From an uncultured Veillonella sp. (GTDB taxonomy: Bacteria; Bacillota; Negativicutes; Veillonellales; Veillonellaceae): DNA of 7,305 bases. Both the position numbers and the translations under genes were made by a program. Of the stretch, positions 3,297-7,305 are shown in pieces. Position 1 is the first letter of the stretch, and each line of letters begins with the position of its first letter. A model generated the notes under the pieces. It did no database searches, was not told the origin of the DNA, and worked only from the letters and a program-made list of their open reading frames with translations. The DNA is taken from positions 1 through 7,305 of the forward strand of contig NZ_CAJLUB010000097.1 in the NCBI RefSeq assembly GCF_905209685.1, given 5' to 3'.

Positions 3297-4700
3297 ATGA
3301 ATACCTTTACACGCGCCGCACTGACGGTACTGGTAGGACTTGTAATTTGGTTCTTGCCTCACACGGAGGCGATTAAGCCTGAAGGATGGCATTTATTAGC
3401 TATCTTCACGGCTACAATTGTAGGTTTTATTTTACGACCTTGGCCAACAGGTATTATGGCACTCTTTGGTATTGTTGCTGCGGTAGCAACAAATTCTATT
3501 ACCATGGTGCAAGCATTAGGTGGTTACGCTGAAGCCAATGTATGGCTTATCGTAGCAGCTGTATTCTTTTCTAGAGGTATTATTAATTCTGGCCTTGGTA
3601 AGCGTATCGCGTATACTTTGATTCGGTCCTTTGGTACTAGTTCCTTAAAGTTAGCTTATGCATTGGCTTGTACGGATCTTATTATTTCTCCTGCCACGCC
3701 ATCTAATACGGCTCGTGGAGGCGGTATTATTTTCCCAATTGTACAAAACATTTCGTTAGCCTTTGATTCTGAGCCAAATGGTAGTACGGCACGTCGTATT
3801 GGGGCATACTTGATGACAACGGCTCATACGATAAACACCATTACTGTAACAATCTTCTTAACTGCTTGTAGTGGTAACTTATTGATTACATCCTTAGGTG
3901 CAAAATTGTTTGGCTATGATATTTCATGGTGGGAATGGTTCCAAGCAGGTGTCATCCCTGGTGTAATTTGTATGATTTTGATGCCTTGGTTTATTTATAA
4001 AATCTATCCGCCTGAAATCAAGGAAACACCTCAAGCAGCAGTAATGGCCCAAAAAGAGCTAGATATACTAGGTCCTATTACAAAGGCTGAAATTTCAGTG
4101 GCTATTATTTTTGTACTTTGTATTTTGCTGTGGTCCACAGCGATTTGGACGAAGTTACATCCTACTGTAGTTGCTATGATGGGCGTACTTGCTTGTGTAG
4201 TTACAGGCTCCCTTACATGGGAAGATATTCTAGGTGAACGCACAGGTTGGGATATTCTAATCTGGATGGGTACCCTCGTTGGTATGGCTGGTTTACTTGG
4301 CAAGCTCGGTGTTGTTGCAGTATTTGCTGATTTTGTAAGTCAACATCTTGTAGGTATTGATTGGTTCTGGGCATCCTTCATTATCTCTGCAACCTTTGTA
4401 TACTCTCAATATTTCTTTGCCAGTGGTACAGCTCGTATTACAGCGTTATTCTCCGCCTTTGCAGCTATCTTGGTAGCAATGGGGGCACCAATTCCGTTTA
4501 CCATTTTGCTCTTTGGTTTGATGAACAGCCCTGGCTGTACATTAACGCATTACAGCTCTGGTGTAACACCAATCTTCTTCGGTGCAGGCTATGTACCGCA
4601 AGGAACATGGTGGCGTGTAGGTCTTGCTATTTCTGTGGTTAGCTTCTTAATTCACTTCTGGGGCGGTACCCTTGGCATGTGGCTATTCGGTATTCTATAA
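3297..4700 (+). CDS. DASS-family (SLC13/CitT-like) di/tricarboxylate anion transporter
   Basis: 467 residues, strongly hydrophobic throughout with about a dozen membrane segments, the right size for the divalent anion:sodium symporter family. Diagnostic motifs: WHLLAIFTATIVGFIL near the N-terminus (31-46), the first re-entrant-loop motif SPATPSNTARGGG (131-143) with Ser-Asn-Thr at 136-138, the ARRIGAYLM helix (165-173), and the C-terminal re-entrant region LTHYSSGVTPIFFGAGY (416-432). These align with E. coli CitT (APFTPSNTARTGG, ARRIGGYLM, LTPYATGPGVIIYGCGY), so citrate, succinate, malate, tartrate or 2-oxoglutarate exchange is likely. Substrate and direction cannot be fixed from sequence. 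An AGGGAGG site (3286-3292) precedes the ATG with a short 4-nt spacer. It is a single-gene unit bounded by terminators on both sides; the promoter is not clear. Confidence 0.9.
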   Translation: MNTFTRAALTVLVGLVIWFLPHTEAIKPEGWHLLAIFTATIVGFILRPWPTGIMALFGIVAAVATNSITMVQALGGYAEANVWLIVAAVFFSRGIINSGLGKRIAYTLIRSFGTSSLKLAYALACTDLIISPATPSNTARGGGIIFPIVQNISLAFDSEPNGSTARRIGAYLMTTAHTINTITVTIFLTACSGNLLITSLGAKLFGYDISWWEWFQAGVIPGVICMILMPWFIYKIYPPEIKETPQAAVMAQKELDILGPITKAEISVAIIFVLCILLWSTAIWTKLHPTVVAMMGVLACVVTGSLTWEDILGERTGWDILIWMGTLVGMAGLLGKLGVVAVFADFVSQHLVGIDWFWASFIISATFVYSQYFFASGTARITALFSAFAAILVAMGAPIPFTILLFGLMNSPGCTLTHYSSGVTPIFFGAGYVPQGTWWRVGLAISVVSFLIHFWGGTLGMWLFGIL

Positions 4701-4705
4701 TATTC

Positions 4706-4738
4706 AAAAAGTCCCTCACAGTAGTGAGGGACTTTTTT
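4706..4738 (+). terminator. Rho-independent terminator after the anion transporter
   Basis: The arms AAAAAGTCCCTCAC (4706-4719) and GTGAGGGACTTTTT (4724-4737) are perfectly complementary around the tetraloop AGTA. The T-tract after the GC core serves the + strand, and the A-tract before it would also allow termination of minus-strand transcription. It isolates the transporter from the ilv leader region. Confidence 0.93.
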
Positions 4739-4872: not shown

Positions 4873-4901
4873 TTGCACGACATTATATAAAATGTTATTA
4901 T
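4873..4901 (+). promoter_or_regulatory. Putative promoter of the ilv leader transcript
   Basis: A -10-like TATTAT (4896-4901, five of six) stands 17 bp after a weak -35 TTGCAC (4873-4878, three of six including TTG). Transcription would begin near 4908, about 28 nt before the leader ORF, which is a typical distance for an attenuator leader. No better promoter is seen between the transporter terminator and ilvD. Confidence 0.5.
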
Positions 4902-4935
4902 TATTTTATGATTACAGATTACTTTAGGAGGAAAC

Positions 4936-5067
4936 ATGTTGGGTTTAGTCATTAGCTTGTTGATTATCGCGCTCGTCGTGATTATTAAAGACATTCGAAT
5001 TATGAACAACAACTTAACACGTTTTTGTCTTAGAAGTTCCACGAATGGTTTAATATACAATCAATAA
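4936..5067 (+). CDS. Putative branched-chain amino acid leader peptide (43 aa) of the ilvD-ilvA unit
   Basis: A small ORF starting at ATG 4936 with a perfect AGGAGG (4926-4931) 4 nt upstream and ending TAA 5065-5067. The peptide begins MLGLVISLLIIALVVIIKDI. Residues 2-22 contain 15 branched-chain residues (5 Leu, 3 Val, 7 Ile), including Leu-Leu-Ile-Ile and Leu-Val-Val-Ile-Ile runs, much like the E. coli IlvL leader. The run uses GTC twice and CTC once, codons uncommon in the neighbouring genes, where GTA/GTT and TTA/TTG/CTT dominate. The second half is polar with no domain. It lies just before a leader RNA with alternative folds and a terminator in front of ilvD, which argues for a translated attenuation sensor. 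The alternative is a real small membrane protein, since the same residues would make one hydrophobic helix (about 2-17). Confidence 0.7.
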   Translation: MLGLVISLLIIALVVIIKDIRIMNNNLTRFCLRSSTNGLIYNQ

Positions 5068-5200
5068 GATTTGACTATACGGTTTGTTTCTTATGTGTAT
5101 TTATTCCAAGGGATACATAGGTCGTTTATGTACATAGGAATTCTGTAAACAAAAGGAATATCATTTGTAAACTTTTAAGACGATTCATAAGAATCGTCTT
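4988..5200 (+). promoter_or_regulatory. Candidate translation-coupled transcription attenuator of ilvD-ilvA
   Basis: Four segments fit the classical 1-2-3-4 scheme. Segment 1 AAGACA (4988-4993), at codons 18-20 of the leader ORF, complements TGTCTT (5026-5031). Segment 2 TTGTCTTAGAAGTT (5025-5038) can make 14 consecutive pairs, two of them G-U, with segment 3 AACTTTTAAGACGA (5170-5183). Segment 3 overlaps the left arm of the terminator (5177-5186), whose right arm, segment 4, is 5191-5200. Thus 2:3 pairing excludes both 1:2 and 3:4. Between segments 2 and 3 nested stems are possible: 5083-5089 with 5147-5153, 5103-5107 with 5137-5141, and 5114-5119 with 5127-5132. A competing helix, 5031-5040 with 5137-5145 (one bulge), would also tie up segment 2. 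All pairings were found by eye, not by folding software. No T-box motif (TGGNACCGCG) is present. Confidence 0.6.
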
Positions 5201-5205
5201 TTTTT
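5177..5205 (+). terminator. Rho-independent terminator in the ilvD leader (attenuator terminator)
   Basis: The perfect 10-bp stem AAGACGATTC (5177-5186) / GAATCGTCTT (5191-5200) around the tetraloop ATAA is followed by five more T residues, giving a seven-T tract (5199-5205). It points at ilvD, 54 nt before the ATG, and no promoter is evident between the two, so it must be bypassed for ilvD expression from the leader promoter. Confidence 0.88.
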
Positions 5206-5211
5206 ATTAAG

Positions 5212-5240
5212 TTGAAAGGCATCCAAGTGGATGCTTTCAA
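5212..5240 (+). other. Bulged hairpin in the 5' UTR just before the ilvD ribosome site
   Basis: TTGAAAGGCATCC (5212-5224) and GGATGCTTTCAA (5229-5240) form a 12-bp stem with a single bulged G and the 4-nt loop AAGT. No T-tract follows, so it is not a terminator. It lies between the attenuator terminator and the Shine-Dalgarno (5248-5253). It may protect the mRNA 5' end or keep the ribosome site unpaired; this is inference. Confidence 0.55.
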
Positions 5241-5259: not shown

Positions 5260-6930
5260 ATGAGTTGTAGAAGTGACAATTTAAAAACAGGCGTAGCACG
5301 TGCACCACACAGATCTTTGCTAAAAGCTCTTGGTTTTGTTGATGAAGAAATGGGCAGACCAGTCATTGGTATTGCGAACTCTTTCAACGAAATTATCCCT
5401 GGTCACGTGGGCTTGAAAAATATTGTACAAGCCGTAAAAGACGGCATTCGCAACGCAGGTGGTGTGCCAATCGAGTTCAATACAATTGGTATTTGTGACG
5501 GCTTGGCGATGAACCACATCGGTATGAAATACTCCTTGGTAACTCGTAATATCATCGCTGATTCCATCGAAGCAACAGCTATGGCAACACCATTTGATGC
5601 TATGGTATTCATTCCAAACTGCGATAAAGTAGTACCTGGTATGTTGATTGCTGCAGCTCGTCTAAACATTCCATCCGTATTCGTATCCGGTGGTGCTATG
5701 CTTGCAGGCGTACACAATGGCAAAAAAATCGGTTTGTCTGATGTATTCGAAGCAGTAGGTAAACATCAAACTGGTGAAATGGATGATGCTGAGTTATCTG
5801 AAATCGAAAATACGGCATGTCCTACATGTGGTTCTTGCTCTGGTATGTACACAGCTAATACAATGAACTGCTTAACAGAAGCTCTTGGTATGGGCCTTCC
5901 TGGTAATGGTACAATTCCAGCAGTATACTCTGAACGTTTACGTCTTGCTAAATTAGCAGGTATGCAAGCAGTAGAGGTATTGAAAGCAAATCTTCGGCCT
6001 AAAGACATTATGACACGCGAAGCTTTTGAAAATGCAGTAGCTCTAGATATGGCTTTGGGTGGTTCCTCTAATACAGCACTTCATTTGCCAGCTATCGCTC
6101 ACGAAGCAGGTGTACCATTGTCCTTGGACGACTTCGATCGCATTGCACAAAACACACCTCAATTGTCCAAACTTTCTCCATCTGGTAAATACTTCATCGA
6201 AGACTTGTATGCTGCAGGCGGCGTATCTGCAGTGTTGAAACGTTTAGCAGAAAATGGTCGTTTGCATACAGATTGCAAAACTGTAGCTCTTAAAACACAA
6301 GGTGAAATTGCAGCGGTAGCTCATGTAACTGATGAAGACGTTATTCATCCTTGGAATAATCCTGTTCATGAAACAGGTGGTATTGCCGTTCTTAAAGGTA
6401 ACCTTGCTGTAGACGGTTCCGTTGTAAAAGCAGGTGCCGTAGATGAAGATATGCTTGTTCACTCTGGTCCAGCAAAGGTATTCAACAGCGAAGAAGAAGC
6501 TGTTGAAGCTATTACAGGCGGTAAAATCGTAAAAGGTGATGTGGTAGTTATCCGTTACGAAGGTCCTAAAGGCGGCCCTGGCATGCGTGAAATGTTAACA
6601 CCAACATCCATGATCGCAGGTATGGGTCTTGATAAAGACGTAGCCTTGTTGACTGATGGTCGTTTCTCTGGTGCTACACGTGGTGCATCCATTGGTCACG
6701 TATCTCCAGAAGCTGCGGCTGGTGGTACAATCGCTGTTGTTGAAGATGGTGACATTATCAACATCGATATTCCAAACGGTAAATTGGAATTGGCTGTATC
6801 TGATGAAGAAATCGCTCGTCGTAAAGCCGCATTGAAACCATTCAAATCCAATGTAACTGGATACCTAAAAAAATACGCTCTTCATGTATCCTCTGCAGCA
6901 CAAGGTGCTATCGAAGTATTTGAAGACTAA
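5260..6930 (+). CDS. ilvD: Dihydroxy-acid dehydratase
   Basis: 556 residues from ATG 5260, a normal length for the shorter bacterial IlvD forms; E. coli IlvD (616 aa) has an extra insertion. It dehydrates 2,3-dihydroxy-isovalerate and 2,3-dihydroxy-3-methylvalerate to the keto acids that give valine/leucine and isoleucine. Visible motifs: the N-terminal AxxRxLLKALG region (13-25), [10 protein letters not shown] (119-128) with Fe-S ligand Cys121 and the Lys123 position that is carbamylated in the family, [18 protein letters not shown] (187-204) with Cys193, [10 protein letters not shown] (about 267-276), [11 protein letters not shown] (about 432-442) and [11 protein letters not shown] (466-476) with the catalytic-position Ser470. 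The third ligand Cys of [2Fe-2S] types is replaced ([11 protein letters not shown], 39-49), as in E. coli. It is followed after 41 nt by ilvA. Edd (phosphogluconate dehydratase) is homologous, but the motifs fit IlvD better. Confidence 0.96.
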
Positions 6931-6971: not shown

Positions 6972-7305
6972 ATGCATAAGTTGTATGATTTTATGGAGGC
7001 TCGTGAGCGATTAAGCACAATCACGGTGAAAACAAAATTGCTTCACAGTGATGTGTTCTCCGATGAAAGTGGCAATGATGTATATATCAAGCCAGAAAAC
7101 TTGCAAATAACAGGTTCCTTTAAGGTTCGTGGTGCCTATAATAAAATTGCAAAATTAACAGAAGAAGAAAAGGCGCGCGGCGTTATTGCCGCATCTGCCG
7201 GTAACCATGCGCAAGGTGTAGCGCTTGCTGCAAAACGTCTAGGCATTAAAGCGACAATCGTCATGCCAAAACATACACCTCTCATCAAGGTGAATGCTAC
7301 AAAAC
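6972..7305 (+). CDS. ilvA: Threonine ammonia-lyase (threonine deaminase), N-terminal part
   Basis: The first 111 residues are visible; the gene runs off the window end. It converts threonine to 2-oxobutanoate and ammonia, the first committed step to isoleucine. Fold-type II PLP motifs are clear: KPENLQITGSFKVRGA (40-55) with the PLP-binding Lys at 51, and SAGNHAQG (75-82), the phosphate/substrate-binding loop. The start at ATG 6972 is supported by AGAGGAGA (6956-6963), 8 nt upstream. With only 41 nt after ilvD and no terminator or promoter between, it is probably co-transcribed and shares the attenuator. Whether a C-terminal ACT regulatory domain is present (biosynthetic IlvA) or not (catabolic TdcB) cannot be seen; the ilvD linkage favours the biosynthetic role. 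Confidence 0.88.
   Translation, partial: MHKLYDFMEARERLSTITVKTKLLHSDVFSDESGNDVYIKPENLQITGSFKVRGAYNKIAKLTEEEKARGVIAASAGNHAQGVALAAKRLGIKATIVMPKHTPLIKVNATK

Follow-up and report, generated by a model that had tools for sequence, protein, structure and literature searches.

The window analysed here, a 7,305-nt stretch of DNA from an uncultured Veillonella sp., carries ilvD (dihydroxy-acid dehydratase, 5260-6930) and the start of an ilvA-type gene for a PLP-dependent enzyme (6972-7304) that is truncated by the window end, both assigned with Pfam and, like the leader elements described below, located on the forward strand. The encoded IlvD matches the V. infantium protein with 100% identity, and the gene of a related locus (L027) at the position matching the ilvA-type gene encodes a threonine ammonia-lyase. 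A plasmid search gave no match. The gap between ilvD and the preceding transporter gene, which ends at 4700, houses a promoter-like site, a Shine-Dalgarno sequence, a short ORF and an intrinsic terminator. Two further hairpins lie in this gap. The one 3' of the transporter gene (AAGUCCCUCAC-AGUA-GUGAGGGACUU with a T run, 4709-4738) was seen by eye, is not in the terminator scan and is probably the terminator of that gene. The other (GAAAGGCAUCC-AAGU-GGAUGCUUUC, 5214-5238) lies between the terminator and the Shine-Dalgarno sequence of ilvD; L014 and L021 carry a differently sequenced hairpin with the loop UAGU at its place, again seen by eye.

Transcription is predicted to start at about 4908, from a promoter-like site at 4873-4901 (TTGCAC-17-TATTAT, with TG at 4893-4894). 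This places the putative start upstream of the ORF and not downstream of 5205, where the preliminary description of this DNA had held that a start would speak against attenuation. The best promoter match of all ten V. parvula-type leaders falls 62-70 nt 5' of the leader ATG with a 17-nt spacer, and nine of the ten possess the TG element. Singly these promoters are weak, 2 to 26 of 100 shuffles scoring equally high, and because 12/100 shuffles score as high as the window site, its assignment rests on the conserved place in relatives. The same scan returned no convincing promoter match for the V. ratti group and L095.

Behind a Shine-Dalgarno sequence (AGGAGG, 4926-4931) lies an ORF of 43 codons (4936-5067), identified from the sequence and by comparison with relatives and predicted to be translated, in which 15 of codons 2-22 (4939-5001) encode Leu, Ile or Val, in agreement with the preliminary description. 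Ten Veillonella loci contain 2411 ATG starts with 22 or more open codons; seven of these reach at least 15 Leu/Ile/Val in codons 2-22, and all seven are the ilvD leader; the leaders of the three remaining loci (L003, L006, L008) fall below this threshold.

The conserved Leu/Ile/Val-rich ORF that had been proposed as a feature to seek in relatives was found in Veillonella-type loci and in the order of Leptotrichia. All Veillonella-type loci whose upstream sequence is long enough have it before ilvD; at L010 and L098 the contig ends too early. Short ORFs that follow a Shine-Dalgarno sequence and have at least 13 Leu/Ile/Val in codons 2-25 occur in 52/55 Veillonella/Fusobacteria ilvD loci and in 1/58 other ilvD loci (L080). 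These counts enter some genomes twice and leave out loci with less than 400 nt upstream, which in the first group are L010, L033 and L098. The three misses (L028, L030, L031) are all fusobacterial. Within the order of Leptotrichia, 33/45 loci have the leader, a count that drops five of 50 loci without an alignable IlvD start and scores L180, with 176 nt upstream, as a miss; it comprises all 28 loci with the closest IlvD (L143-L170) and 5/17 more distant loci, where L190 looks spurious. Other Veillonellales loci (L104-L118, IlvD 50-62% identical) have no such leader, their best Leu/Ile/Val count being below 10/24. In more distant Fusobacteriales (L169, L170, L172, L182, L184), ilvD is preceded by short ORFs rich in Ile and by terminator-like hairpins of different sequence.

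Leader peptides range from 29 to 56 aa. Within the V. parvula-type group, changes in the Leu/Ile/Val codons are mostly synonymous or exchange one of these residues for another, with single departures to Phe, Ala and Thr. We aligned 20 leaders out of 35 (alignment A1; 16 Veillonella-type and 4 Leptotrichiaceae), leaving out the VA142 group, L013, L023-L025, L029 and near-duplicates, and in this alignment indels in the Leu/Ile/Val stretch are multiples of three. Close species differ in C-terminal frame through a single-base indel in the T run (5022-5026). Frameshifted relatives had been named as evidence that would count against the attenuator; the C-terminal frame of L005-L007 does differ, but only 3' of segment 1, and the Leu/Ile/Val part is intact. 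Compared with the window's clade, L087 has a T run one T shorter and one extra C downstream (leader nt 85-110), which puts a few codons (FVLEVP) into the other frame and leaves the C-terminus as in the window. The VA142 group (L008, L009, L011, L026, L034) varies from 264 to 410 nt in the distance from leader ATG to ilvD despite near-identical leaders, owing to extra DNA 3' of the terminator.

Between the leader ORF and the first gene, the terminator scan and the alignment place an intrinsic terminator (5177-5205), a 3:4 hairpin (5177-5200) followed by a T run. Its arms AAGACGAUUC/GAAUCGUCUU (5177-5186 with 5191-5200) form the perfect 10-bp stem already described, closed by the loop AUAA. Duplex energies and the alignment also define segment 2 (5025-5049), the 5' strand of the antiterminator, which lies within the leader ORF, and segment 3 (5160-5183), the 3' strand, whose own 3' part is the left arm of the terminator. 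The helix 5025-5038/5170-5183 of the preliminary description has 14/14 standard pairs but was drawn too short, since 5041-5049/5160-5168 add to it and the antiterminator runs over 5025-5049/5160-5183. RNAduplex scores the window leader against the terminator left arm at -24.0, compared with -9.9 +/- 2.4 for shuffles, none of 500 reaching -24.0. An antiterminator that shares a strand with the terminator is kept in relatives, the 2:3 duplex being matched by at most 5/500 shuffles in 28/35 leaders and not significant by this test in the other seven (L008, L011, L012, L013, L023, L029, L034). The terminator finder returned none in L024 and L025, whose arms were set by hand for the duplex test; a pattern search did not locate the segments in L001, L003, L150, L156 and L158 and returned a false site in L154, and the segments of L150, L154, L156 and L158 were read by eye.

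Across the 20 leaders of A1, 90.4% of cells in the 2:3 helix are paired versus 40-56% when the strands are slid, with row L087, shifted one column in segment 2, counted partly as unpaired; the terminator is 98.5% paired. Compensating changes had been expected in both stems. Pairing is kept but few such changes were found: double substitutions occur at 3/14 pairs of the 2:3 helix, a count reached by 84/500 shuffles, and the covariation score is reached by 3/500 and the number of further pair types by 411/500. At the clearest 2:3 substitutions, Veillonella has GUC/GAC, most Leptotrichiaceae leaders have GCC/GGC, and L022 and L164, two loci with the same leader peptide, have ACC/GGU; the VA142 group builds 2:3 from a different sequence pair. 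V. ratti-type, V. caviae-type and most Leptotrichiaceae leaders translate segment 2 as (V/A/T)LKVS or a similar peptide, whereas the window, V. parvula, V. atypica and V. montpellierensis use another frame there. The leaders of L005-L007 stop at the end of segment 2.

Free folding of the window leader from the predicted start to the terminator (-68.9) retains the terminator and predicts two upstream pairings, one between segment 2 and the putative protector strand, segment 1 (4992-5013), and one between part of the Leu/Ile codons (4956-4965) and the stop-codon region (5059-5068). In the segment 1 region, CATTCGAATTATGAACAACAACTTAACA is invariant in the ten rows of alignment A2. Where the window has 4956-4965/5059-5068, V. 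intestinalis/V. ratti-type leaders pair UUAGCUUGC with GCAAGCUAA, and the V. ratti-type outer helix (CCAUGA or CCGUGA with UCAUGG) differs in sequence from CAUUCG/CGAAUG. A different competitor for segment 2, the helix 4988-4993/5026-5031, had been proposed earlier; it is present in the window but intact in only 2/10 close relatives. It rests on codons 18-19, and no codon among 1-25 varies more in amino acid than codon 19; because the AAGACA strand is kept only in the window and L001 among the ten A2 rows, we rejected 4988-4993 as a conserved segment 1. The local protector fold of the window is no better than shuffled sequence (24/100), the whole leader has slight support (4/100), and four of five V. 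ratti-type leaders form a strong local hairpin (0/100 shuffles each; L103, 26/100). In terminator-bearing folds from 4908, UUACAGAU in the 5' UTR (4912-4919) is predicted to pair with 5163-5170, half of segment 3, a possible fifth element.

Constrained folding, which the preliminary description had recommended, shows a switch in the window, with the terminator when the leader is free and 2:3 when enough of its 5' part is covered, but the folds depend on start point and footprint. Forcing 2:3 in the full-length fold of the window gives -60.5, a cost of 8.4 kcal/mol. With leader nt 1-75 or 1-90 covered, a 12-bp 2:3 core becomes the minimum free energy (MFE) structure and 5 bp of the terminator are left; covering nt 1-60 or 1-70 yields an 8-bp 2:3 core beside a 9-bp terminator, as does covering everything up to 5005. 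For a single footprint at Ile17, the stop codon or segment 2, the MFE of the transcript from 4908 contains the terminator, while folds begun at the ATG with a ribosome at the stop give the antiterminator or a P(terminator) of 0.4-0.5. In the free window leader, the modelled P(terminator) is 0.99. Moving the A site along the ORF changes it to 0-0.5 over codons 4-16, 0.6-0.9 over codons 17-22, at least 0.9 over codons 23-40 and 0.4-0.5 from codon 41 to the stop. A stall at Ile codons 16-22 had been predicted to favour read-through; the best stall point within the run differs in detail between fold models. Equilibrium curves across relatives are mixed: L009, L012 and L023 show little or no switch, L014, L016, L032 and L095 a weak one, and L005, L008, L024 and L025 a low P(terminator) even when free, the zero values of L024 and L025 being unreliable because their arms were set by hand.

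Before segment 4 exists, P(2:3) is 0.95 in the ribosome-free window, and because 2:3 already wins at this stage the protector would need kinetics. At the same stage, P(2:3) of L012, L017, L022 and L029 rises from 0.13-0.29 when free to 0.44-0.86 when the ribosome is stalled. A ribosome over segment 2 abolishes the helix (P(2:3) 0.00) in 25/26 modelled leaders, the value of 0.70 for L003 arising from a segment 2 start placed too far upstream, and in L023 2:3 is absent in every modelled state. The protector step is thus putative and is weakly supported in the window's own clade.

Sequence and comparison show a leader ORF, a terminator and a 2:3 helix that excludes it; relatives retain these parts and have the gene order ilvD-ilvA-ilvB-ilvN. 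We regard 4873-5205 as very likely to be an attenuator of transcription before ilvD that is mediated by the ribosome, and the leader-peptide interpretation of the preliminary description is supported by the kept Leu/Ile/Val codons, the in-frame indels and the 2:3 and 3:4 pairing. We propose that the leader ORF senses charged tRNA through its Leu/Ile/Val codons. When amino acids are plentiful, the ribosome would run through the ORF across the coding segment 2, after which the leader would refold into the protector and the terminator would form. When branched-chain amino acids (BCAA) are scarce, the ribosome would stall in the codon run 5' of segment 2 and mask segment 1; segment 2 could then capture segment 3, and RNA polymerase would read into the operon.

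The window element lies 5' of ilvD in Veillonella with a terminator between, and from this place it is very probably the published ilvD motif (WRC-18-2), for which 73 representatives, all from Veillonella, have been presented as a weak riboswitch candidate (PMC8632094). Genus, gene, position 5' of ilvD, the intervening terminator of some representatives and the long stems are shared; the published account differs in its riboswitch reading, and the section on the motif mentions no ORF (PMC8632094). A search of open-licence full text found no account of the Veillonella ilvD element as a leader-peptide attenuator.

That published candidacy favours a metabolite- or ppGpp-binding riboswitch, in which a conserved RNA binds the ligand and the ORF is incidental, as do the invariance of the RNA around segment 1 in ten close relatives and the terminator downstream of it. 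We consider this very unlikely, since codons for Leu, Ile and Val stay in place and in frame from Veillonella to Leptotrichia although the RNA is for the most part altered, Rfam riboswitch families give no match, and the paper proposing the motif concedes weaknesses itself (PMC8632094). Scarcely credible is a small membrane protein gene with an unrelated terminator: its Leu/Ile/Val run would be a transmembrane helix, which the peptide does resemble, and sequence databases hold 53 homologues with E <1e-4, but no Pfam family matches, the product varies from 29 to 56 aa with a C-terminus frameshifted between close species, the ORF stands before ilvD in the loci seen and segment 2 pairs with the terminator arm.

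A variant attenuator in which the protector has no function deserves more weight, yet we still judge it unlikely. Here the translating ribosome would sweep the coding segment 2 and an untranslated leader would be read through. The position of segment 2 within the ORF, the loss of 2:3 under a ribosome in 25/26 leaders, the P(2:3) of 0.95 in the ribosome-free window before segment 4 and the weak local protector in the window's clade all fit this variant. Against it, the full-length free fold retains the terminator (-68.9 versus -60.5 with 2:3 forced), strong local hairpins occur in four of five V. ratti-type leaders, and a ribosome on segment 2 would need to trail the polymerase by ~130 nt.

The preliminary description had also stated that Firmicutes mostly control ilv genes by T-box or CodY. 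T-boxes are indeed present in 10/10 genomes searched, one of them on leuA, but CodY was not found. A T-box at the ilvD leader was rejected, there being no covariance-model match at the site, where no Rfam family reaches its cut-off (one scan gave no hits, another thirteen weak ones, all below). V. parvula has six T-boxes, before thrS, cysS, leuA, ileS, glyQ-glyS and trpE-trpG, and the leuA T-box lies within ~0.6 kb upstream of its gene in 4/4 genomes. CodY regulation was likewise rejected, as CodY was detected in 0/6 genomes (4 Veillonella, 2 Fusobacteriota) by a search that recovered CodY in B. subtilis and L. lactis, the two positive controls. Within a single genome, the pathway would apparently be divided between two sensors of tRNA charging, the leuA T-box and the ilvD leader peptide.

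Judged by sequence, a device of the same kind precedes ilvD in Leptotrichiaceae. ilvD, ilvB and ilvC are clustered on one strand in 4/4 Veillonella genomes, with the order ilvD-ilvA-ilvB-ilvN-ABC ATPase-ilvC in V. parvula SKV38; Leptotrichia hongkongensis and Fusobacterium gastrosuis have ilvD-ilvA-ilvB-ilvN in common, interrupted behind ilvD by an esterase-like ORF in the former and continued by leuA-leuC in the latter. Inserted ORFs were seen in V. parvula (ABC-type ATPase between ilvN and ilvC; L027, 11165-11947) and in Leptotrichia (esterase-like, between ilvD and ilvA; L015, 7687-8553). Each of 14 genomes searched from the window's genus has one IlvD match. A quick IlvD tree (79 rows, midpoint root) nests Veillonella among Fusobacteriota and rejects a single fusobacterial clade (p-AU 0.0076), from which we infer that operon and attenuator probably moved together, the attenuator travelling with its operon by horizontal transfer.

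A broader reading, which in its full form we regard as possible though doubtful, is that the Veillonella ilvD motif, rather than being a riboswitch, represents one branch of an attenuator cassette that is carried horizontally and shared across phyla with Leptotrichiaceae. The antiterminator strand of this cassette would itself be coding, formed in most relatives by the sequence for the (V/A/T)LKVS-like stretch of the leader peptide, and the ribosome would be both the starvation sensor and the protector that wipes out the antiterminator. The attenuator reading offers a concrete, testable mechanism for an orphan RNA motif already in the literature and would shorten the list of riboswitch candidates by one. 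The data further suggest that inheritance across phyla can carry a leader-peptide attenuator along with its operon, a point relevant to the earlier question of whether such attenuators evolve many times or spread (PMC2965389). The main points of interest are this cross-phylum spread and the coding antiterminator.

The enterobacterial ilvGMEDA, leu, trp and his attenuators follow a four-segment logic in which 2:3 competes with 3:4 and control codons lie in the leader, and in their textbook geometry a ribosome at the leader stop masks segment 2. The window shares the logic and the control codons but not this geometry, since its segment 2 (5025-5049) is coding and the stop codon (5065-5067) lies 3' of it. 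Leader-peptide ilv attenuators are already in print for Staphylococcus (PMC5794164) and Listeria (PMC5864092). Listeria Rli60, likened here by arrangement and not by sequence, likewise combines a BCAA leader peptide with a 3:4 terminator and an antiterminator before ilvD, but has a 13-aa leader, is also controlled by CodY and has been tested experimentally (PMC5864092). The S. aureus ilvD attenuator shares an Ile/Leu-rich leader ORF and a terminator before ilvD; unlike 2:3 of the window, its proposed antiterminator spares the terminator stem and pairs with the poly-U tail, and CodY also acts (PMC5794164). The sibling ilvB motif has been re-read as a uORF attenuator in a paper whose main text names neither ilvD nor Veillonella (PMC10272879). 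The Corynebacterium ilvB-II and Leptospira ilvB motifs, from other genes and phyla, are parallels in that they too began as orphan RNA motifs and have since been reinterpreted as BCAA uORF attenuators (PMC10272879).
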